Shown piece by piece: positions 33,433 to 45,609 of a stretch of DNA of 64,000 bases. Below the pieces are notes generated by a model. The model made no database searches and was not told the origin of the DNA. It saw nothing but the letters and a program-made list of their open reading frames with translations. The DNA comes from Alkalispirochaeta americana (GTDB taxonomy: Bacteria; Spirochaetota; Spirochaetia; DSM-27196; Alkalispirochaetaceae). Each line of letters opens with the position of its first letter. The first letter of the stretch is position 1. The position numbers were made by a program, and so were the translations under genes. The stretch covers positions 62,001 to 126,000 of the forward strand of contig NZ_FTMS01000001.1 in NCBI RefSeq assembly GCF_900156105.1, given 5' to 3'.

Positions 33433-34674
33433 ATGCTCAGGATACTGCATATTGACAGAAGCGAGCTTTTCAGGAAGGTAATGCGGGAGCTGGTGACCCG
33501 GTGCGGCCATTCCGTGGTGAGCGTGCCCACCAAAGAGGACGCTCTCGAGACGATGGCTCAGGAAGAAATCGATCTGGTTGTCACGGCGCTGAAACTCGAC
33601 GATGGCGGAGCGGAATCACTTATCACCGCCATGGCCGGTACGCCAAGCCGGGATATTCCCGTCATTGTTGTTACATCGACCGATTCCCTGGAGCAGCGGG
33701 AGCGGCTCTTTTCGCTGGGTGTGGTGGAGTATATGCTCAAGAACGAGCTCTCGGAAGACCGCTTTATCCGGTATCTGGAGACGCTGGCCTCGGACGATGA
33801 GCTCTCCCGTTTCATGCGAACCCTCAAGATAGCCGTTGTGGACGACTCCCAGGTAACGCTCAAGATCGTATCGCGCATCCTCTCCATGAACGGGTTTTCC
33901 TCGGTGACCCTCTTCGATCACCCCGAAAAGCTCCTCCAGGAAAAGGATCCTTTCGATCTCTACATTTGCGATATCGTTCTTCCCGGCATCTCCGGGGATC
34001 ATCTGGTCTCGCTGATCCGCCAGGAGCATCAGGACGCGATCATTATCAGCATGTCCCAGTTCAGCGGAGAGCGGTCGCTCTCGAACATTCTGGGCGCCGG
34101 AGCCGACGACTACATCCACAAACCCTTCGATTCGGCGGGACTCATGGCCCGAATAAAGGTAAACGTCCGGTCCTACCAGCTCAAAAAACGGTTGGAGATG
34201 CTGGCCGTAACGGATGGCCTCACGGGGCTGTACAACCACCGCTATTCCTATGATCGGCTGGAGCAGGAGATTTCCAAGGCCAAGCGGTATCAGCGCGAGC
34301 TTTCGGTCGCCATGATCGATGTGGATGACTTCAAAGGCGTGAACGATACCCAGGGGCACCGAAAGGGCGATGAGGTCCTGGCGGGGATCGCCCGGCTTAT
34401 GGAGGAAAACCTCCGCAAGTGCGATATCGTGGGGCGTTACGGGGGGGAAGAGTTTCTGGCAATCTTCCCCGAAACCGATCTGGACGATGCCCGGGTGGTT
34501 GCGGACAAACTCCGGCGTGTCCTGGCCGATCATGACTTCCAGGGATCGGGAATCACCGTCTCCGCCGGCGTGGCCGCCTTTGACGGAAAGGAGAGCGCCC
34601 AGGTCCTGGTATCGCGGGCCGATGCGCTTCTGTACCGGGCAAAGCACCAGGGCAAGAACCGCATCGAGGGGTGA
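33433..34674 (+). CDS. PleD-like response regulator: two receiver domains and GGDEF
   Basis: A protein of 413 residues from the ATG at 33433. Receiver 1 (about 1-120) begins LRILHIDRSELFRKVM, but the phosphoacceptor site reads DLVVTALKLDDG, with no Asp at the usual place, so it is probably not phosphorylated. Receiver 2 (about 130-245) is intact: IAVVDDSQ, YICDIVLPGISG and DYIHKPFD. The GGDEF domain (about 255-413) has DGLTGLYNHR, DVDDFKGVNDTQGH and GRYGGEEFLAIFPE, so it should make c-di-GMP. The layout matches PleD, with receiver 1 as a dimerisation adaptor. It is a lone gene, convergent with the pseudo-kinase at 34707. Its cognate kinase is not evident. Confidence 0.93.
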   Translation: MLRILHIDRSELFRKVMRELVTRCGHSVVSVPTKEDALETMAQEEIDLVVTALKLDDGGAESLITAMAGTPSRDIPVIVVTSTDSLEQRERLFSLGVVEYMLKNELSEDRFIRYLETLASDDELSRFMRTLKIAVVDDSQVTLKIVSRILSMNGFSSVTLFDHPEKLLQEKDPFDLYICDIVLPGISGDHLVSLIRQEHQDAIIISMSQFSGERSLSNILGAGADDYIHKPFDSAGLMARIKVNVRSYQLKKRLEMLAVTDGLTGLYNHRYSYDRLEQEISKAKRYQRELSVAMIDVDDFKGVNDTQGHRKGDEVLAGIARLMEENLRKCDIVGRYGGEEFLAIFPETDLDDARVVADKLRRVLADHDFQGSGITVSAGVAAFDGKESAQVLVSRADALLYRAKHQGKNRIEG

Positions 34675-36032: not shown

Positions 36033-36061
36033 TTGCGTTCAGGCCGGTCTTGTCTCATACT
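36033..36061 (+). promoter_or_regulatory. Possible promoter upstream of the chemoreceptor
   Basis: TTGCGT, 17 bases, CATACT gives a 4/6 match in each hexamer, about 65 bp before the chemoreceptor start. I saw no sigma-28 flagellar promoter. Confidence 0.35.
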
Positions 36062-36130
36062 TTTTACTGTGCACAAGATTTTTCAACACAGGATTACAAC
36101 ACAGGAATCAACAGAAAGGGTAAAGCTGTT

Positions 36131-38353
36131 ATGAGGGAAAAGGAAAAATATCGGGTATCCGGTCTGCAGACCTTGCGGGGCAGGATGATTTTTCTCTTCG
36201 GAGGCGTCTCGGCCCTGTTGCTCCTGCTTATGGGTGCTTTCCTGCTGTGGCAGGGAGGACGCGCCCAACGAAGAACGGTGGACGAACTGGTTCAGGAGAT
36301 TGTCCTTGCCCGCGCAGCCGAGGCGGGGCGATGGATCGAGGGAAACCGGGAGATCCTGCGCCAGGTCTCGGCGTCGCCCGAGTTTTTTCGGGGAGATTTT
36401 GAGGCAGTCACGGACACCCTGATAGCCCGGCATGACCGGCGGCCCGAAGAATACGAGGATTACTTTTTCCTGGATCTTCAGGGCGATTTTGTGGATAGCG
36501 CTGCCTACACAGGAAACCTCATGCACCGCGATTACGCCGAGGCCATCCTGAAGAGAGGCGCCTCGTTTTATGTCGACAACGGGCTGGTGAGCTCCACCAC
36601 GGGAAACGGTATCACCGTGATTGCCCAGGAGGTTCGCGATGATCGCGGTGTGCTCCAGGGCGCGCTGGCTGCGGCGGTCTCCCTGGACGCCATAGTGGAG
36701 ATGACCCGGGGAATGAACTTTGGAGAGGCTGGCCACGGTGTTATCGTCGATGGGGCCGGCCTGGTGATCGGCCATCCCGATCCGGCGCTGGTTATGAACC
36801 TGAATACGCTGGACGCACCGGACTGGCCGGGACTTGAGACGATTGGACGCCGGATTACCGAAGGATCTGCCGGTGCCGGGGATTTCCGGAATCCCCTGGG
36901 AGAACGGTATCACGGTATTTTTGCCCCCATCCCGGGTTCAAACAACTGGAGTGTTGCTTTTTTCCTGCCCTATTCCGATATCAACGCTCCCGTATATCGT
37001 CTGGCCTGGGTGATCGTTGGAGCGGTGATCCTTGCGCTGGCAGGTGTGGTGATAACCACGGTTCTTGTAGCAGGGCGTATCGCCGCGCCGATCAGAAGCG
37101 CTGCCCAAAGGCTGGAGGAGCTTGCCCAGGGCTCCCTTGATTCCGCCGGAGATCCGAAAGCGGCCAGCCGGCCCGACGAGATCGGTGTTCTGGCGCGTGG
37201 CCTTGATTCCCTTCAGGAGCGCCTGCGCCAGGTGGTCCTTCAGGTGAAGGGTTCAGCCCGGAAGGTTGCCCACGGAAGCAGCAGCCTTACGACTATCGGC
37301 AATCACACTGCCCACGGTGCAGGCGAGATGGCCAGTGCCGCCCAGCAGCTTTCCCAGGGGGCCTCGGAGCAGGCCGCTTCGGTGGAAGAGGTCTCGGCCT
37401 CGATAGAGCAGATGACCTCAAATATCCAGCAAAGCGCTGACAACGCCGAGGCAACAGAAAAGATTGCCACCCAGTCGGCGATAAACGCCGAGCAGAGCGG
37501 GGCTGCCGTGGGAGAAACGGTCCTGGCCATGAAGCAGATTGCTGAAAAAATCAGCATCATCGAGGATATTGCCCGGGAGACAAACATGCTCTCTCTGAAC
37601 GCCGCCATCGAGGCGGCCCGGGCGGGTGAACACGGAAAGGGCTTTGCTGTTGTCGCTACGCAGGTACGAAAACTGGCGGAAAACTCCGCTGAAGCGGCCA
37701 AGGAGATCAGTGAGCTGAGCATCTCCTCGGTGAAGGTTGCCGAAGGAGCCGGCCGTCTTCTGGAGGAGACCGTTCCCAATATCCGGAAAACCTCGGAGCT
37801 GGTGCAGGAGATAAGCGCCTCCAGTCGGGAGATGAGCGTCGGGGCAAAGCAGGTGAACCAGGCAATTCTCCAGCTGGACCAGGTAGTGCAGCAGACTGCA
37901 GCCTCTTCCGAGGAAGTTGCCTCGGCAAGCGAGGAGCAAACTTCCAGAACCGGGGAGTTGGCGGCTGCTTCGGAGGGGCTTTTGCAACAGGCCCGCGCGC
38001 TGGAGGCGGCGATCTCCTTTTTCAATACCGGTGCTGACGGTGACGACGGCCACGATACTGATACCGATGTCGGGCCGGCCGACAGGCCGGCAAAACCCGA
38101 CAGGTCCGGGAAAACCGGGATCGCCGAAAAAACAGAACCCCCGAGAACCACTCTCCCGAGACCGGGGGCGGCCGGAGAGAGTGCTTCCGGCAGGGCCTCG
38201 TCTTCTGGCCCACTGAGCCCGTCCGGGCCACAAGCTTCACCCCCGGCCGGAAATAAGTCCCGGGAGGTACCCCGGATCACGGGGATAACCCTTCCCCAGG
38301 ATACAGGCAAGGGGCTGCCCGACGATATCGATCTTGAGTTTGAGGATATGTAG
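36131..38353 (+). CDS. Methyl-accepting chemotaxis protein with dCache-type sensor
   Basis: A chemoreceptor of 740 residues from the ATG at 36131. Transmembrane segment 1 is at about 20-42, a ~250-residue periplasmic part follows with Cache features ([21 protein letters not shown], then [22 protein letters not shown]), transmembrane segment 2 is at about 295-318, then HAMP and the signalling coiled coil with the tip [22 protein letters not shown]. The last ~110 residues are a Pro/Ser/Gly-rich flexible tail ending in an acidic [10 protein letters not shown]; this is not the NWETF-type CheR tether. Ten bases later the STAS gene begins, then cheA, so receptor, STAS protein and kinase form one operon. 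Confidence 0.94.
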
Positions 38354-38362
38354 GGGTGTTAT

Positions 38363-38719
38363 ATGGCAAAGGTTGAAATGCAGGACCAGGATGGTCTTCG
38401 GACGGTTGTGGTTCAGGGCGGTGTGACAATCGGCGATGTGGACGAGCTCTACCAAATCCTTGGCGAAGCTCTGGATCAGAAAGAGGGCACGTTGCTCCGG
38501 GTAGATACCCGGGGCGTCACCTTTGCAGAGCTTCCCTTCGTCCAGCTCCTTCTTGCGCTGGTGCGGGAGGCCTCGGCCCGCTCGATCCCGCTCGACTTGA
38601 CCTCTGCGGCGGGAGCTGTCTTTGAGGAGGCTCTTCATGAGTTGGGGTGCACCCAGTTCTTCCGACCCGCCGGGGAAGGATCATCCCGGCCCGGCGGACA
38701 GAGAGAGGACAGAACATAA
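38363..38719 (+). CDS. STAS-domain protein in a chemotaxis operon
   Basis: A protein of 118 residues. The STAS fold is suggested by VVVQGGVTIGDVDELYQIL, LLRVDTRGVTFAELPFVQLLLALV and the final IPLDLTSAAGAVFEEALHELGC. In anti-sigma antagonists, the segment after the second strand holds a phosphorylatable Ser (D-S); here it reads AELP, so this protein is probably not controlled by Ser phosphorylation. Its TAA stop shares a base with the cheA ATG (TAATG), implying coupled translation and equal amounts. Inference: a scaffold or adaptor for the receptor/CheA complex. About ten residues at the end are polar and Gly/Arg-rich. Confidence 0.8.
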   Translation: MAKVEMQDQDGLRTVVVQGGVTIGDVDELYQILGEALDQKEGTLLRVDTRGVTFAELPFVQLLLALVREASARSIPLDLTSAAGAVFEEALHELGCTQFFRPAGEGSSRPGGQREDRT

Positions 38720-40866
38720 TGGATTTTTCCAGCGAACCCTTTTGTATCGAAACACGGGAGCTTCTGAAAAAGCTCGAGCAGGATCTGGTTACCCTTGAAG
38801 AGAATCCCCGGGACGAGGAATTGCTGAATCGGATTTTCCGCAACGTTCATACCATGAAGGGATCGGGGAGTATGTTCGGGTTTGAGAACATATCGGAACA
38901 GGCCCACGTCATGGAGAGCGTCTTCGATTCACTCCGCTCGGGGGCGCTCCAGGTAACAAAGGAGATCATCGACGCATCCTTTGAGGGGCTGGATCGGATA
39001 GAGGTCATGCTGGACGATCCGGATTGCAGGGCCGACACCGGAAGATGGAGGGATATTCTGGATCTCCTCCCCTCCAGGACAGAGGAGCAGCCCCCCCTGG
39101 CGGAGGCTGCCGGGGGATCGGCCTCGCCCGATTCTTCCCGGGGCGGGGCGTTGCAAGACGGGTCGGGCAGGCCCGGTCTGGAAAAGCAGGATCAACGAAA
39201 GAGGAAAAAGGGCCCGTTAACGGTCTTTCATATCCGCCTCCGGCCAAAGGAGTCGGCTCTCCAGAGCGGTAATAGCGTGATCCCGCTCTTTCGGGAACTG
39301 GCCGAGCTGGGCGAGCTATTGATCTTCGCCAACGATCGTCGTCTTCCTGCCTGGAAGGAGCTGAAACCGACCCACTGCTATATCGACTTCGATATACTCC
39401 TTTCCTCCACGGCGGTGAAGGAAACCGTGGAGGAGGTGTTCATCTTTATTGCGGCCCACAGCGCCGTGGAGGTGACGCCCGTGGCCTTTGTGGAGGAAGG
39501 GGATGACCCGCCACGGCTGGGTGAGATTCTCCAGAGACGGTGCAATCTCTCGGAAGAGCACGTGGAAAAACTTCTGGAAGAACAGAAAAAAAACAAGCGC
39601 CTGGGAGAGCTGGCAATAGAGAAGGGTTACGCACGGGAAAGCGATGTGGCCGTTTCCCTGGAGGCTCAGAACTTTTTCAAGGATCAGCACAAGAAACATC
39701 AACAGAAGGTGCAGTCCTCGTCCCTGATGGTTCCCGATCACAAAATAAACAGCGCCGTTAATCTGGTGGGTGAGCTGGTAACGCTCAAGGAACGGCTTCT
39801 TCGCCGGGCCTCGGAGCTGAAAGATCCCGCTTTGAACACTATCGCGGAGAACCTGAACTTCCTCACGGGAGATCTCCGCGAGGGGATTATGGAGATGCGT
39901 CTGGTGCCGCTCCAGGACACCTTTGTAAGCTTTCGGCGACTGGTGCGGGATATCTCCCAGGATATGGGTAAAAAAGTGGATCTCCAGGTAGAAGGGGGCG
40001 ACACGGAGCTGGACAAGAATGTGATCGATGTTCTCAAGTCGTCGCTGGTGCACATGATCCGCAATAGTGTCGATCATGGGATTGAATCTCCCGAGGAACG
40101 GGTTGCTGCAGGAAAGTCTCCTGTGGGAGAGATCCTGCTCCGGGCCCAGTACGTAGGGTCCCAGGTGCAGATAGAGGTTTGCGACGATGGTCGGGGGATC
40201 AATCTGGAGAAGGTTCGGAAAAAAGCTGTCGAGCGGGGTGTTCTTCCTCCCGAGGCGGAGTTGAAAATGGAGGAGGTTCTCTCGATCCTGGCTGCTCCCG
40301 GGTTTTCTACGGCCGATCAGGTCTCCTCGGTATCGGGCCGGGGAGTTGGAACCGACGCAGTTCTCACCGAAGTGGAGCGTTTGTCGGGGCAACTGTTCCT
40401 GGAGTCCGAGCAGGGCCGGGGGTCTACCTTCACAATCCGTCTGCCCCTCACCCTTGCCATCATTGACAGCCTCCTGGTTCGTCTGGACCGGAAGTTTTTC
40501 ACCATCCACCTGAACGATGTGAAGGAATGTTTTATCCTTCGCGATGCCCCGGCCCTGCTGGGTCAGGGACAGCAGGTTATAAACCACGAGGGACATCCCT
40601 TGCCGCTGGTGAACTTGCGCAGACACATGAAGATGGGAGGAGATGTTCCCGACATCGCCAATGTGGTGGTGGTTGATTCGGGATCACAACGGGCGGGAAT
40701 CGTGGTTGACCAGATCATGGGGCAAAGTCAGGTGGTGATAAAGCCCCTGAACGGGGCGGTCCGCACCGTTCCCGAGATCAGCGGGTCCACCATCCTGGGA
40801 GACGGCAGTATCTCCTTTATTCTGGACGTGCCCCGGATGATCACGGGGCTCTATGCACCCCGGTGA
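38719..40866 (+). CDS. cheA: Chemotaxis histidine kinase CheA with an MshEN-like insert
   Basis: A protein of 715 residues. P1 (about 1-110) has the phosphoacceptor in NVHTMKGSGSM (His44). The dimerisation helices are at about 340-400 (INSAVNLVGELVTLKERLL). The ATPase has HMIRNSVDHGIESPEER, CDDGRGIN and VSGRGVGTDAV. A CheW-like P5 ends the protein (LTLAIIDSLLVRLDRKFFTI to ILDVPRMI). Between P1 and P3, in place of a plain P2 CheY-binding domain, lie a ~90-residue module (about 170-260) and two back-to-back 24-residue motifs (266-289 and 294-317), each starting RLG and ending in Q. These resemble the c-di-GMP-binding MshEN repeat. No CheW, CheR, CheB or CheY gene is beside it. Confidence 0.95.
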   Translation: MDFSSEPFCIETRELLKKLEQDLVTLEENPRDEELLNRIFRNVHTMKGSGSMFGFENISEQAHVMESVFDSLRSGALQVTKEIIDASFEGLDRIEVMLDDPDCRADTGRWRDILDLLPSRTEEQPPLAEAAGGSASPDSSRGGALQDGSGRPGLEKQDQRKRKKGPLTVFHIRLRPKESALQSGNSVIPLFRELAELGELLIFANDRRLPAWKELKPTHCYIDFDILLSSTAVKETVEEVFIFIAAHSAVEVTPVAFVEEGDDPPRLGEILQRRCNLSEEHVEKLLEEQKKNKRLGELAIEKGYARESDVAVSLEAQNFFKDQHKKHQQKVQSSSLMVPDHKINSAVNLVGELVTLKERLLRRASELKDPALNTIAENLNFLTGDLREGIMEMRLVPLQDTFVSFRRLVRDISQDMGKKVDLQVEGGDTELDKNVIDVLKSSLVHMIRNSVDHGIESPEERVAAGKSPVGEILLRAQYVGSQVQIEVCDDGRGINLEKVRKKAVERGVLPPEAELKMEEVLSILAAPGFSTADQVSSVSGRGVGTDAVLTEVERLSGQLFLESEQGRGSTFTIRLPLTLAIIDSLLVRLDRKFFTIHLNDVKECFILRDAPALLGQGQQVINHEGHPLPLVNLRRHMKMGGDVPDIANVVVVDSGSQRAGIVVDQIMGQSQVVIKPLNGAVRTVPEISGSTILGDGSISFILDVPRMITGLYAPR
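39514..39669 (+). other. MshEN-like tandem motif inside cheA
   Basis: Residues 266-289 (RLGEILQRRCNLSE...LLEEQ) and 294-317 (RLGELAIEKGYARE...SLEAQ) of CheA both fit the published MshEN pattern RLG-x2-hydrophobic...L-x2-Q over 24 residues. The linker is four residues against five usually, and the first motif has Cys where Gly is common at position 10. MshEN domains of type II secretion and pilus ATPases bind c-di-GMP with high affinity. Confidence 0.6.
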
Positions 40867-40937: not shown

Positions 40938-40960
40938 AGCGCTCTTTCAGGAAGAGCGCT
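40938..40960. terminator. Hairpin between convergent cheA and GGDEF genes
   Basis: A perfect 9-bp stem (AGCGCTCTT / AAGAGCGCT) with a 5-base loop overlaps the stop codon of the minus-strand GGDEF gene and lies 71 bp after cheA. It could serve both directions; no strong T-tract is seen. Confidence 0.55.
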
Positions 40961-42023
40961 CGCTGGAGCAGGCCTCGTCCATAAACTCGATGATGTGCTC
41001 GCTCAATTCGTCCAGGCTCGTTTCCCGTTTCCGGTCTTTCTCGCTGTAGAGGTGGATATCGGCTCCCTGGAAGAGTTCTTCCGGTGACGCCGGGGTTCCG
41101 GAGTAGACGCCAATGCTGACGCTGTAGGGAACGGGGGCCTGCCCCTTTCCCCGTTCCAGGGCCTCTTCCAGCCGCCTTCTGGCCTCGGCTGCTCCTGACT
41201 GATCGGTCTCGGGCATGACCACGATGAACTCATCCCCTCCATAGCGCGATACAAAGTCTGTTTCACGGACCGATTCTTTCAGAATTGAGGCCAGGTGCTG
41301 CAGGACCATGTCGCCGGCAGCGTGCCCCCAGGAATCGTTGATAGCCTTGAACTGATCCAGATCGATCAGGAGGGCCGCCAGGGGAGCCCCTGTTCGCGTG
41401 CATCGCCGGATCTCCCGCTCCAGGGTGCGCCCCAGGCTCCGGCGGTTCTGAAGCCCCGTGAGGCAATCCTCCAGGGCAGCCCGGCGGAGGGCTCTGAAAT
41501 AATAGGCCTTCTCGATTGCGATTGCGGCAAAATCGGCGATTGTGCAGAGCACCTTCATATCCAGGGCGGTGAAGGCCTCGCCGTTGACCTTGTTGATCAG
41601 TTCAATTACCCCAAAGACCCGATTCCGCGCAATCAGCGGCACCCCGATGATGCTCTTTGTCTTGAACTTGGTGAGTTCGTCGATGGACGGATCGAAACGG
41701 GCATCCCGGGAGACATCCTCGATTATCAGAGGTTGACGGTTATCAGCAATCCAGCCCACGATCCCCGTTCCCGGGGGAAGCCGCTTTCCCCGAAGGGCAG
41801 CGACGTTTTCGCCGCCGATCGCTACGGCGAAGACCATCTCCCCGGTTTGATTGTCTTTCAGCAGGAGCGACCAGTTGCGGGGGGCAAAGACGTTGCCAAT
41901 ATGCTTCATTACCTGCTGGAGCGTTGCCTCCAGAGTGGTAGCGGCAGCGATATCCCGGGCCATGTCGGTGAAGAAGCTCAGACGAATGAGGTCTTCCGTG
42001 GCGGTATTCTGTGCAGAGACCAT
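40947..42023 (-). CDS. GAF-GGDEF diguanylate cyclase
   Basis: A soluble protein of 358 residues. The GAF domain (about 15-170) includes LPPGTGIVGWIADNRQPLII and IIGVPLIARNRVFGVIELINK. The GGDEF domain (about 185-340) has DCLTGLQNRRSLG, DLDQFKAINDSWGHAAGD and the intact active site SRYGGDEFIVVMPE. It should make c-di-GMP in response to a small ligand bound by GAF. It converges on cheA, whose MshEN-like insert may bind c-di-GMP. The final ~20 residues are acidic. The start at 42023 has a weak ribosome-binding site. Confidence 0.93.
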   Translation of the reverse strand: MVSAQNTATEDLIRLSFFTDMARDIAAATTLEATLQQVMKHIGNVFAPRNWSLLLKDNQTGEMVFAVAIGGENVAALRGKRLPPGTGIVGWIADNRQPLIIEDVSRDARFDPSIDELTKFKTKSIIGVPLIARNRVFGVIELINKVNGEAFTALDMKVLCTIADFAAIAIEKAYYFRALRRAALEDCLTGLQNRRSLGRTLEREIRRCTRTGAPLAALLIDLDQFKAINDSWGHAAGDMVLQHLASILKESVRETDFVSRYGGDEFIVVMPETDQSGAAEARRRLEEALERGKGQAPVPYSVSIGVYSGTPASPEELFQGADIHLYSEKDRKRETSLDELSEHIIEFMDEACSSERSS

Positions 42024-42154: not shown

Positions 42155-42235
42155 TGGGCTTACCGGGCCTTCCCGTGGCCGGTTTGATGAAAGATGATTC
42201 TTCCGTTATCCTCGCACCCGAGGAGTCCCTACTGT

Positions 42236-43882
42236 ATGAGTTCAATTCTCCGGGCTGAAAACGAAGCGGACCAAAAGACCGGGGCCGAAGCCTTGTCGCA
42301 CCAGACCCTGGTTGACCTGAACCTTCACCGGGCGGTGGCCGATATCACAGCCGGCAAAACAGAATACTGCCTGGAACCTCTCTACGCGCTTCCCCTGACC
42401 ACTCCCGACGAAGTGCTTTTCCGACAGGAGGTATTCCGGGATCTGGAGAACCCCCGGTTGTCCCAGGGACTCAACGCCTTTGCGCGGCAGCTGTGGGCGG
42501 TGCGGCGCAACCAGGCCCTGGGCCGGGCGGCCTCGTATCCAAAAGAGCAGCACCGTTGGTACCTGGATTCGGTCACGGACTATTGCGAGGCCCTGAAGGG
42601 GCTTGCCCGGACCCTGGCGGAGGCTCCCCTCGTGTCGGCTGGTCTGAAGGGGTTCCGCGACTGGCTTGGTTCGTACCGCGAGAGCGAACCCTTCAGGCAG
42701 TTGTCGGCCCGTCAGGAAGCCCTGCAGCAGGAACTGGGAGCTATCAGGTTTTGTATTCTTCTGGACCCTCCCGATATCCAGGTTCGTCCCTGGCAGGAAG
42801 AGGAAGAGCTGGAAGGGCCGGTGTACAACCTGTTTGAAAAGTTTCGCCAGGGGACCTCCCGAAACTATCTGAAAGACTATCAGGGTTCGGGAGCGATGAA
42901 CCACCTGGAAGCGCAGATTCTGGACCGGGTCGCTCTGATGCACCCCGAAACCTTCTCCCGCCTGGAATCGTTTTGTGCATCCGCTCAGGATTGCATCGAT
43001 CCCGGAATAAAGACCTTCGATCGGGAAATCCAGTTCTATTTGGCCTATCAGGACTATCTGGCCCCCCTGCGGCAGGCGGGGCTTCCCCTCTGTTATCCCC
43101 TGGTGTATCCCCTGGTGTATCCCCTGGCGTATCCCCTGGCCGGTGAACCCTCCTCATCCTGCCGGCAGCAGGCCAGTCTGCAAGGGGACCACCAGGCCGG
43201 CGACCTGCCCCGGAGCAAGCCGGAAGAGCCGCCACGGATCATCTGTCGGGGTCTCTACGACCCGGTCCTGGCCCGGGAGCTGATCGATCAGGGCATGAAA
43301 CCCGTGGAAAACGACCTCTCCCTCTCCCCGGAGGAGCAGGTTCTGGTCGTCACCGGTCCGAACCAGGGAGGCAAGACCACCTTTGCCCGGGCCCTGGGAC
43401 AGCAGTTCCACCTGGCCGCGCTGGGGTGCCCTGTCCCCGGTCGGGAAGCCCGCTTTCCCCTCAGCCCCCGGGTTCTTACCCATTTCGGAAAGGAAGAGAA
43501 CCTCCAGGAACTTCGCAGCGCCCTGGAGGACGACCTTCACCGTCTGGAAGAGATCCTGGATCAAACACAACCCGGCTCGGTTGTGGTTTTGAACGAGATC
43601 TTTTCCTCCACAACTCTGGAAGACGCCCTGGAATTATCGCGCCATGTTCTGGAAGAGCTCCGTGCCCGGCGAGCCCTGACGGTGATGGTCACCTTCCTGG
43701 ACGATCTGGCAGAGGAGACCCCCGGTCTGGTGAGCCTGGTGGCGGGAATTGATCCTTCCGATCAAGGAAGTCGCACCTTTCGAGTCATCCGTGCCCCCGC
43801 AGACGGTCGCTCCTACGCCGCCGCCGTGGCCGCCCGGTACGGACTAACCTACGAGCAACTATGCCAAAGGATAGGATCATGA
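42236..43882 (+). CDS. MutS-like ATPase, first of a pair
   Basis: A protein of 548 residues from the ATG at 42236 (GAGGAG site upstream). The N-terminal ~360 residues are helical, like the MutS core and lever (domain III), and begin with the LVDLNLHRAVADITAGKTEYCLEPLY pattern of MutS-related proteins. The C-terminal ATPase has Walker A GPNQGGKTT (residues 374-382) and a Walker-B-like segment SVVVLNEIFSSTTLEDALEL, with Asn where Asp is usual. There is no mismatch-recognition domain, connector, Smr domain or KOW domain, so it is neither MutS1 nor MutS2. A repeat of Tyr-Pro-Leu-Val/Ala interrupts the protein before the ATPase. It overlaps the second gene by 4 bp (ATGA). Confidence 0.85.
   Translation: MSSILRAENEADQKTGAEALSHQTLVDLNLHRAVADITAGKTEYCLEPLYALPLTTPDEVLFRQEVFRDLENPRLSQGLNAFARQLWAVRRNQALGRAASYPKEQHRWYLDSVTDYCEALKGLARTLAEAPLVSAGLKGFRDWLGSYRESEPFRQLSARQEALQQELGAIRFCILLDPPDIQVRPWQEEEELEGPVYNLFEKFRQGTSRNYLKDYQGSGAMNHLEAQILDRVALMHPETFSRLESFCASAQDCIDPGIKTFDREIQFYLAYQDYLAPLRQAGLPLCYPLVYPLVYPLAYPLAGEPSSSCRQQASLQGDHQAGDLPRSKPEEPPRIICRGLYDPVLARELIDQGMKPVENDLSLSPEEQVLVVTGPNQGGKTTFARALGQQFHLAALGCPVPGREARFPLSPRVLTHFGKEENLQELRSALEDDLHRLEEILDQTQPGSVVVLNEIFSSTTLEDALELSRHVLEELRARRALTVMVTFLDDLAEETPGLVSLVAGIDPSDQGSRTFRVIRAPADGRSYAAAVAARYGLTYEQLCQRIGS
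43094..43141 (+). repeat. 12-bp tandem repeat coding for YPLV/YPLA
   Basis: Four units of TATCCCCTGGYG/C start at 43094, 43106, 43118 and 43130. They code for YPLV-YPLV-YPLA-YPLA in the first MutS-like protein. The period is a multiple of three, so copy-number change would keep the frame. Confidence 0.92.
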
Positions 43883-45609
43883 GAGTCTTTCTCCTTCACA
43901 GCCCCCATGACACGCCCACCCCGGCTACCCCGGCTACCTCGGCTACCTCGGCTACCTCGACCACTTCGGCTACCTCGGCCACCCCGGCTACTTCGGCCGC
44001 TTTAACTACCTCGGTCACTGCCGGCGGCAGTGCGCCTCCGGGCCACGATGGGCCGGGCCAGACACCCCGGCAGGAAGCACCAAAGCCTCAGAACCTCCGC
44101 ACGGATGACCTCATGAGCGATCTGGAACTGGAACCGCTCTTGCAGCACATGGCCCAGGGAGATCCCCTCATCCGAAAAACCATGGAGAACCAGCTCCTTC
44201 AGAACACCCTCACCCTTGAAACGATCCACTATCGCCAGCAGGTGATGCGCGACACCCTGGAGAACCCCCAGGTGGTCCGCGCCCTCTATGAACAGATCGG
44301 AGCAGTGATGGAAGAAGAGGGGCGGCTCTATCAAGGAATCTTCTCCACCCAGCCAGCCTCGGTCCTGCAAAACGCCCTGATGCCCATGGAAGCCTTCACA
44401 AACCTGCTGGAAGAACTCTGCCGGACAGCCCGGACCGAGCAGGACCACTTCCGGTCGGAAGGGTTTCGGCACCTCTTCGGAATGCTCCAGGAGGAGCTGC
44501 CCCGGGAATACCTGGAAGAGATCCGGTCCATGCTCAAAATCCTGCGGCTGGATCAGGGAACCCTCCTGGGAGCAACCCTGGGGCCGGGAAACAGGTGCAC
44601 CCGATTCTCCCTCCTGCGGCCCCGGCGGGAACGACGATGGAAAGGGTGGCTTCGCAAGAAAATCCCCTCGCCCTATACATTCTCCCTGGCCGAAGGAGAC
44701 GAAATAGGCTATCGCATCATCGAAGAAATCAAGAACCGGGGACTCAACAAAGCCTCTCACATTCTCCTGCAATCGGCTGACCATCTCGTGGGATTCCTGG
44801 GTCGCCTCCGGGAAGAACTCTCCTTTTATGTGGGAGCCCTGAACCTGCGAGACGCCCTGGAAGCTGGTGGAAACCCCCTCTGCATGCCCCTCTGCGAACC
44901 CTGCTCCATACCCCCTGGAAGCGACCCTCCCAAACCGCGGGAACACCGTTTCTCGGGGCTCTACGACCCCGCCCTGGCGGTGCAACTTGCGGAACCTCTG
45001 GCGGGAAACGACGCGATCCTCGACGGATCAACCCTGGTAATCGTAACCGGCGCAAATAAGGGGGGGAAATCCACCTTTCTCCGGAGCATTGGCACGGCCC
45101 AGCTCATGATGCAATCGGGAATGTTTGTCCCGGCCCAAACCTTCCGGGGCTCTCTCTGTCGCGGCCTGTTTACCCACTACCGGCGGGGAGAGGCCCACAC
45201 CATGAACAGCGGAAAACTTGACGAAGAACTCCGTCGCATGAGCGAGATCGCCGACGCCCTGGTCCCGGGATCCCTGGTCCTCCTGAACGAAACCTTTGCC
45301 GCCACCAACGAGGGGGAAGGTTCCGAGATAGCCCGGGGCGTTGTTCAGGCTCTGGTAGACAGGAACATTACTCTCTTCTTTGTGACGCACCTCTATGGAT
45401 TGGCAAAAAGCCTTCACGACCAGAACCGACCGGACTGGGTCTTTCTTCGGGCTCACCGGGACGATCAGGGAGGACGAACCTACCAGGTCACACCGGGAGA
45501 ACCCCTCTCGACCAGCTTCGGAAAAGACCTCTGGCACAACCGCTACCGGGAGCCATCGCCACCCCAGCCGGCAAACCAGCCGGCAAACCAGCCGGCACCC
45601 CGGCCCTAG
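43879..45609 (+). CDS. MutS-like ATPase, second of a pair
   Basis: A protein of 576 residues, the ATG overlapping the first gene's TGA. Residues about 12-65 are a Pro/Ala/Thr/Ser tract coded by 9-bp DNA repeats. A helical core follows (MSDLELEPLLQHMAQGDPLI, then ENQLLQNTLTLETIHYRQQV), then the ATPase with Walker A GANKGGKST (391-399) and SLVLLNETFAATNEGEGSEI, again Asn in place of the Walker B Asp. The composite site pattern and co-translation suggest a heterodimer with the first protein. The C terminus is a PANQ repeat. Like its partner, it lacks the mismatch-recognition domain. A start at 43861 is possible but lies inside the first gene. Confidence 0.85.
   Translation: MRVFLLHSPHDTPTPATPATSATSATSTTSATSATPATSAALTTSVTAGGSAPPGHDGPGQTPRQEAPKPQNLRTDDLMSDLELEPLLQHMAQGDPLIRKTMENQLLQNTLTLETIHYRQQVMRDTLENPQVVRALYEQIGAVMEEEGRLYQGIFSTQPASVLQNALMPMEAFTNLLEELCRTARTEQDHFRSEGFRHLFGMLQEELPREYLEEIRSMLKILRLDQGTLLGATLGPGNRCTRFSLLRPRRERRWKGWLRKKIPSPYTFSLAEGDEIGYRIIEEIKNRGLNKASHILLQSADHLVGFLGRLREELSFYVGALNLRDALEAGGNPLCMPLCEPCSIPPGSDPPKPREHRFSGLYDPALAVQLAEPLAGNDAILDGSTLVIVTGANKGGKSTFLRSIGTAQLMMQSGMFVPAQTFRGSLCRGLFTHYRRGEAHTMNSGKLDEELRRMSEIADALVPGSLVLLNETFAATNEGEGSEIARGVVQALVDRNITLFFVTHLYGLAKSLHDQNRPDWVFLRAHRDDQGGRTYQVTPGEPLSTSFGKDLWHNRYREPSPPQPANQPANQPAPRP
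43921..44019 (+). repeat. 9-bp degenerate tandem repeat coding for Ala-Thr-Ser/Pro
   Basis: Eleven 9-bp units based on YCGGCTACC run from 43921 to 44019, giving an N-terminal ATP/ATS tract. Unit sequence varies by a few bases; the frame is kept. No spacers occur, so this is not a CRISPR array. Confidence 0.9.
45565..45600 (+). repeat. 12-bp tandem repeat coding for a C-terminal PANQ tract
   Basis: CAGCCGGCAAAC occurs at 45565 and 45577, and CAGCCGGCACCC at 45589, just before the stop of the second MutS-like gene. Confidence 0.88.

Follow-up and report, generated by a model that had tools for sequence, protein, structure and literature searches.

The chemotaxis histidine kinase CheA of Alkalispirochaeta americana has, between its P2-like and P3 domains, an additional module that is a genuine homologue of the N-terminal four-helix subdomain (MshEN_N) of the MshEN/GSPII domains. 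Sequence, profile, genome-wide and fold comparisons agree on this relationship, confirming the kinship with MshEN that a preliminary description of the DNA had proposed. From the features set out below we infer, as a reasonable reading, that c-di-GMP could act directly on the chemotaxis kinase. The gene lies in a window of 64,000 nucleotides, the whole stretch of DNA that was analysed.

Domain organization of CheA

The cheA gene (38719..40866, + strand) encodes a protein of 715 residues, arranged as P1, P2-like domain, MshEN_N-like module, P3, P4 and P5; the translation of the + strand and the Pfam domains bear out the earlier reading of this frame as CheA. Pfam places Hpt/P1 at residues 8-94, H-kinase_dim at 334-393, HATPase_c/P4 at 442-578 and CheW/P5 at 585-709; the P3 dimerisation domain (39718..39897, + strand, residues 334-393) corresponds to PF02895. 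The catalytic motifs are intact, with the phospho-His at residue 44 in HTMKG, the N-box RNSVDHG at 448, DDGRG at 489 and GRGVGTD at 540. The protein has the make-up of a CheA histidine kinase, with a phospho-His P1, a P3, a P4 with its N and G boxes and a P5. These domains and motifs are common to it and to the classical five-domain CheAs of T. maritima and E. coli (P1-P2-P3-P4-P5), from which it differs by an extra module of about 60 residues between P2 and P3.

The P2-like domain is encoded at 39220..39486 (+ strand, residues ~168-256). In a model of residues 166-345, built with 24 relatives, the P2 part has the order strand-helix-strand-strand-helix-strand and is followed by four helices. 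The best Foldseek match of the P2-like domain is the P2 domain of T. maritima CheA (1U0S_A, prob 1.00, TMt 0.62), which VIA-align superimposes with a Z of 6.3 and an rmsd of 2.5 over 73 residues, a score that other ferredoxin-like folds equal. The CheA orthologue in another genus (L083) has a Pfam P2 match at the same place (E 3e-4, just under the family cut-off). A ferredoxin-like P2 fold is present between P1 and P3. The preliminary description had located the repeat where P2 normally lies, and this has to be corrected: since the P2-like domain occupies residues ~168-256, the module is an insertion between P2 and P3. Replacement of P2 by the repeat is rejected on the model, the Foldseek result and the Pfam match of the orthologue.

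The two RLG…Q segments previously noted at 266-289 and 294-317, four residues apart, are found exactly there. Motif I (39514..39585, + strand, residues 266-289, RLGEILQRRCNLSEEHVEKLLEEQ) forms helices 1-2, and motif II (39598..39669, + strand, residues 294-317, RLGELAIEKGYARESDVAVSLEAQ) forms helices 3-4, with helix 4 extending towards P3. The spacer between them (39586..39597, + strand, residues 290-293, KKNK) has four residues where the canonical number is five. Both motifs start with RLG, in keeping with an (R/K/L)LG start, and end with VEKLLEEQ (I) and VAVSLEAQ (II), which follow the LxxxLxxQ pattern with Val replacing the first Leu in both. The glycine at position 10 with hydrophobic residues at 7, 11 and 12 is found in motif II, while motif I has Gln at 7, Cys at the turn glycine (10) and Asn at 11, so that the pattern does not hold for both motifs. 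The spacer of five is likewise replaced by four here and by one or two in most relatives of the class. In the solved PilB structure (5TSG) Asn replaces the turn glycine (position 10) and the spacer is seven residues long, so neither the turn glycine nor the spacer length is strictly fixed in this fold. The alpha/beta subdomain MshEN_C is absent; P3, as assigned by Pfam, comes immediately after the module, and a full MshEN domain is not present.

Relationship to the MshEN/GSPII domains

When an 80-residue fragment of the CheA was compared with PDB sequences by phmmer, 12 of the 14 matches were MshEN/GSPII proteins, with T. thermophilus PilF the best (7.6e-7) and PilB (0.017) and MshE (0.24) also among them. 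The module aligns with five solved MshEN_N sequences at 98.6% and an E of 8.2e-16 in hhalign. A profile built from these five sequences alone was also run against the complete genome (3.3 Mb), translated in all six frames. Its top match is residues 266-317 of the CheA at 38719-40866 (E 3.5e-6), matches 2-7 fall in three CheA paralogues, and besides the CheAs nothing in the six frames scores below an E of 0.4. A comparison with MshEN profiles had been suggested as a check on the original reading, and with the solved MshEN_N sequences both hhalign (98.6%) and the genome search (E 3.5e-6) come out in its favour.

The Pfam family named for that check behaves differently. Pfam MshEN (PF05157) matches neither the CheA protein, nor its fragment, nor anything in the whole genome, and its curated cut-off is not reached; across 61 relatives it finds mostly GspE-type ATPases and weak noise and does not bring up CheA. 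However, PF05157 equally fails to match residues 9-69 of V. cholerae MshE, the very segment that binds c-di-GMP there. Since the family is blind to this segment, its silence on the CheA carries no information, and the profile comparison has to be judged by the MshEN_N profile. The suggested check thus failed in its Pfam form and succeeded with the profile of solved sequences. Because PF05157 misses the c-di-GMP-binding half of MshEN, MshEN receptors have probably been under-counted; few spirochaetes of the class have MshEN proteins that Pfam recognises.

The predicted fold leads to the same family. A fold search with the 180-residue model was dominated by the P2 fold and uninformative on the module, and the module was therefore modelled by itself. 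The resulting model (pLDDT 82) is a four-helix bundle with helices at 11-19, 23-33, 39-45 and 51-73, and both Foldseek and VIA match it best to MshEN/GSPII domains. Four PilF GSPII-B entries and MshE fill the first five Foldseek places (prob 0.85-0.99); all of them are c-di-GMP-bound structures and stand above an unrelated background of fumarases. VIA-align gives a Z of 8.6 for 8PDK (rmsd 4.0 over 66) and of 8.4 for 5HTL (rmsd 2.1 over 59 residues), with fumarases reaching 6.4. Taken alone, such a VIA Z would be modest given how small the helical bundle is; the relationship rests on sequence and fold pointing the same way. The modelled fold, which had also been put forward as a check, accordingly has the four helices and the MshEN/GSPII matches expected of it.

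Conservation of the putative c-di-GMP site

According to the MshE study (PMC5013675), each guanine of c-di-GMP is held in MshE by the Arg, the Gly backbone, the LxxxL and the Gln of one motif; the ligand is favoured selectively over other nucleotides; and MshEN_N in isolation binds it at 0.35 uM. Since the isolated subdomain binds, the missing MshEN_C is no obstacle for the CheA module. Work on PilF has widened the consensus at position 1 to R, K or L at little cost, and GSPII-B tolerates R/K/L at position 1 and a motif II of reduced length, with binding still at nanomolar concentrations (PMC11731258). In the same body of work, motif II may be one residue short, large aliphatic residues can stand in for Leu (Ile for Leu costs only 2.4-fold), Gly at position 3 matters, the set (R/K/L)-L-G plus hydrophobic17-L21-Q24 is sufficient, and a perfect motif in GSPII-A still failed to bind in the full domain (PMC11731258, PMC12002112).

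Measured against these limits, the CheAs with a spacer of four are complete at the contact positions. In all five, each of the 12 ligand-contact positions has a residue within the experimentally tolerated range, and both motifs keep (R/K/L)-L-G and hydrophobic17-L21-Q24, with V, I, L or M at 17. As a clade, though, they have no turn glycine in motif I. The non-binder XpsE is listed in the MshE study as having lost G11, I19, L29, R38, G40, L54, L58 and Q61 (PMC5013675); the Alkalispirochaeta CheA keeps these positions except for I19, which is Asn, and has Val for L54.

Among 30 non-redundant CheAs of the class, the 12 contact positions have a mean entropy of 1.04 bits, whereas the mean over all positions is 1.77 bits (resampling, p 0.0014). 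No variation is seen in this set at G3 of either motif or at Q24 of motif II. The motif finder behind the conservation table takes the final Gln as its anchor and accepts only sequences with Gly in the third position; a MAFFT alignment made without it has the same invariant columns. The contact leucines also pack the helices against one another, so their conservation is not purely evidence for a ligand. Variation does occur in the same 30 sequences at Q24 of motif I and at the first position of motif II. Among the CheAs with a spacer of one, Q24 of motif I is retained in only 70%, and motif II opens with R/K/L in 73%. Pocket I is less complete in the short-spacer CheAs, while pocket II is better kept. 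Judged from these residues, part of the CheA family, with its short spacer, weaker motif I Q24 and weaker motif II start, may have lost the site.

Distribution in the class

The module recurs, likewise between P2 and P3, in CheAs of many families in the class. Of 47 CheA rows, taken as whole-protein similarity matches among relatives, 44 have both motifs. The three exceptions are two CheAs of other types without the module and one sequence (L043) whose module was overlooked by the motif script owing to its longer spacer. In the 44 CheAs the spacer has one residue (33 sequences), two (6) or four (5), so that a spacer of four is the longest of those tabulated and near-canonical. The five spacer-4 sequences form one group with full support in a tree that was rooted at its midpoint and has long branches; A. 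americana and A. alkalica contribute two each, and the fifth comes from a different genus of the order. The orthologue in A. alkalica DSM 8900, the closest named relative, is 86% identical. Within the genome of A. americana, the closest paralogue (G000:C5:76400-82812, L082) is 56-59% identical and has the same module; paralogues with the module include a spacer-1 form at G000:C13 and an L-start form at G000:C5. The module is absent from the nearest CheAs found outside the spirochaetes, which belong to the Bacteroidota.

A second type of CheA (L042, L044-L048) has more than one Hpt-like region and a module with a two-residue spacer, in which A, P, E or T replaces Arg at the start of motif I.

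In a search of 148 genomes of the class with the profile of solved MshEN_N sequences, 45 had matches at an E of 1e-4 or better, and among the loci read these were mainly CheAs and short stand-alone MshEN_N-like ORFs. The latter (frames of ~65-150 aa) have a single module of the form EKIGEGLVRIGAMTKEQVETVLKRQK...RLFGEIAVALGFVD... with a spacer of ~5-6, and occur in other genomes of the class at L091, L095, L096, L099, L101, L103, L106, L107, L109 and L115. They are possible one-domain binders of c-di-GMP.

Gene neighbourhood

Upstream of cheA are a dCache-HAMP-MCP chemoreceptor (36050..38353, + strand, from Pfam) and a STAS-domain protein (38363..38719, + strand, Pfam STAS_2 4e-9) whose stop overlaps the start of cheA (TAATG). 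Convergent with cheA is a GAF-GGDEF diguanylate cyclase (40947..42023, - strand, from Pfam and the GGDEF motif), the one neighbour of this kind given previously. A. alkalica keeps the order MCP, STAS, cheA and convergent GAF-GGDEF, with the cyclase at L066:6192-7271. The three GGDEF proteins earlier counted in the window (24427, 33433 and 40947) are all recovered, with the motifs GGEEF, GGEEF and GGDEF. The second of them, a REC-REC-GGDEF (PleD-like) protein upstream of cheA (33433..34674, + strand, from Pfam), is possibly an output or a source of the messenger. The whole genome has 21 GGDEF, 5 EAL and at least 3 PilZ matches, and c-di-GMP is therefore very likely made; with 21 GGDEF genes in the genome, proximity of one to cheA is weak evidence.

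Two further CheAs in the genome likewise have a STAS gene ahead of them. The gene of the closest paralogue is followed by cheW and adjoins MCP genes, and a GGDEF-EAL gene lies ~3 kb off. Further along the window, the genes at 42194-43882 and 43861-45609 stand in tandem with a slight overlap. Both have a C-terminal domain like that of MutS, assigned from Pfam MutS_V in the former and by resemblance in the latter, and both contain low-complexity stretches (PLVYPLVYPLAYPLA; TPATPATSATSATSTTSATS).

Proposed function and its alternatives

The proposal is that the module is a diverged MshEN_N that binds c-di-GMP across both motifs and tunes CheA, and we regard it as evenly balanced. The ligand would bridge the two RLG...LxxxLxxQ motifs, with one guanine held by each. 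Helix 4 would lead towards P3, so that the ligand would shift how P1 and P2 are held relative to P3-P5; in the model this helix continues towards P3, and binding would for that reason change the coupling of P1/P2 to P3-P5. The altered coupling would tune autophosphorylation or phosphotransfer, with a sign that is not predictable. The two parts of the proposal differ in strength: that the CheA copy still binds c-di-GMP is slightly more probable than not, while that binding alters the kinase output is plausible but somewhat less probable than not. An extension to the whole class, in which an MshEN_N-type receptor between P2 and P3 would let c-di-GMP act on CheA itself and not via PilZ or CheY-like adaptors, and short-spacer variants would be tuned to a different affinity or ligand, is tentative and on balance improbable.

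A quite different origin of the repeat, as a chance or low-complexity resemblance unrelated to MshEN, could appeal to the complete silence of PF05157, but the same Pfam library misses VcMshE 9-69, and this reading is rejected as very nearly negligible in view of the agreeing sequence, profile and fold comparisons and the first rank of this CheA in the genome-wide MshEN_N search. Much closer to the proposal is the possibility, which we hold to be real though lesser, that the module descends from MshEN but has lost c-di-GMP binding and now acts as a helical linker, governing how far P1/P2 stand from the P3-P5 core and how they are oriented to it. The spacer of one or two in most relatives is hard to fit to the geometry of MshE and pocket I is weaker; motif I of the CheA lacks the turn glycine; helix 4 extends towards P3 in the model; and non-binding GSPII domains exist in XpsE and in PilF GSPII-A. 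Yet a linker needs neither the invariant G3 of both motifs nor the invariant Q24 of motif II in the 30 non-redundant CheAs, and would be expected to drift, as XpsE did, whereas the Alkalispirochaeta clade keeps 12 of 12 contact positions and a near-canonical spacer.

In our judgement the module is unlikely to be a place where a partner protein docks, the STAS protein or CheW for instance, or to bind a nucleotide other than c-di-GMP or only half of the dinucleotide. Docking would suit the overlap of the STAS gene with cheA and the STAS genes that adjoin two other CheAs, and the MshEN-type N-domain of Xanthomonas PilB does contact PilZ (7LKM); however, the closest paralogue, with the same module, adjoins CheW and not STAS. 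The better preservation of pocket II over pocket I in short-spacer CheAs could reflect either docking or a different ligand, while the selectivity of MshEN for c-di-GMP (PMC5013675) argues against another nucleotide.

Comparison with known systems

The CheA module shows the tandem RLG...LxxxLxxQ motifs, the four-helix bundle and the contact positions in common with the MshEN of V. cholerae MshE (5HTL). It differs from 5HTL in its spacer of four rather than five, the Cys that replaces the turn glycine in motif I, and the lack of MshEN_C, and it sits inside a histidine kinase, whereas that of MshE is at the N-terminus of a pilus ATPase. T. thermophilus PilF GSPII-B (8PDK, 8PKZ) is the top structural match to the module model, and its departures from the consensus (R/K/L at position 1, a short motif II) also occur in relatives of the CheA. 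PilF GSPII-B has a five-residue spacer, a C-terminal subdomain that aids binding and a binding that has been measured, whereas the CheA module is a putative binder. XpsE, a GspE of Xanthomonas, and PilF GSPII-A have an MshEN-type fold with degenerate motifs: XpsE has lost both motif glycines and the second Gln, and GSPII-A has A41 at the second glycine and His and Arg at the Gln positions. In the Alkalispirochaeta CheA, unlike in these two, each motif still has its glycine and its glutamine.

MshEN-CheA fusions are already listed in the main text of Wang et al. 2016 (PMC5013675), and the fusion itself is therefore not new; that main text gives the CheA fusions without position, conservation or binding. 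The text of a survey of CheA architectures (PMC10782961) names no MshEN among the auxiliary domains. A search of a collection of papers found none that shows or tests binding of c-di-GMP to CheA. The present analysis adds the place between P2 and P3, the spread through the class, the variants with a shortened spacer and the near-canonical Alkalispirochaeta clade.

A histidine kinase under direct control by c-di-GMP is CckA, whose site lies in its PAS and catalytic domains and which is not a chemotaxis kinase. Even though CckA and the present CheA are both histidine kinases, their binding sites are unrelated, and control of CheA by c-di-GMP is a proposal. The response of Caulobacter CckA to c-di-GMP has been described (PMC4853435), and c-di-GMP is known to reach chemotaxis via adaptors and chemoreceptors, such as the PilZ chemoreceptor Cbp1 (PMC6454048).

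Alkalispirochaeta is a free-living spirochaete. Many relatives of its CheA carry the module at the equivalent position, and c-di-GMP may be a direct regulator of the kinase. If the module binds c-di-GMP, one of the best-studied kinases would gain a direct second-messenger input, and the spirochaete class would gain a candidate receptor in each module-bearing CheA.
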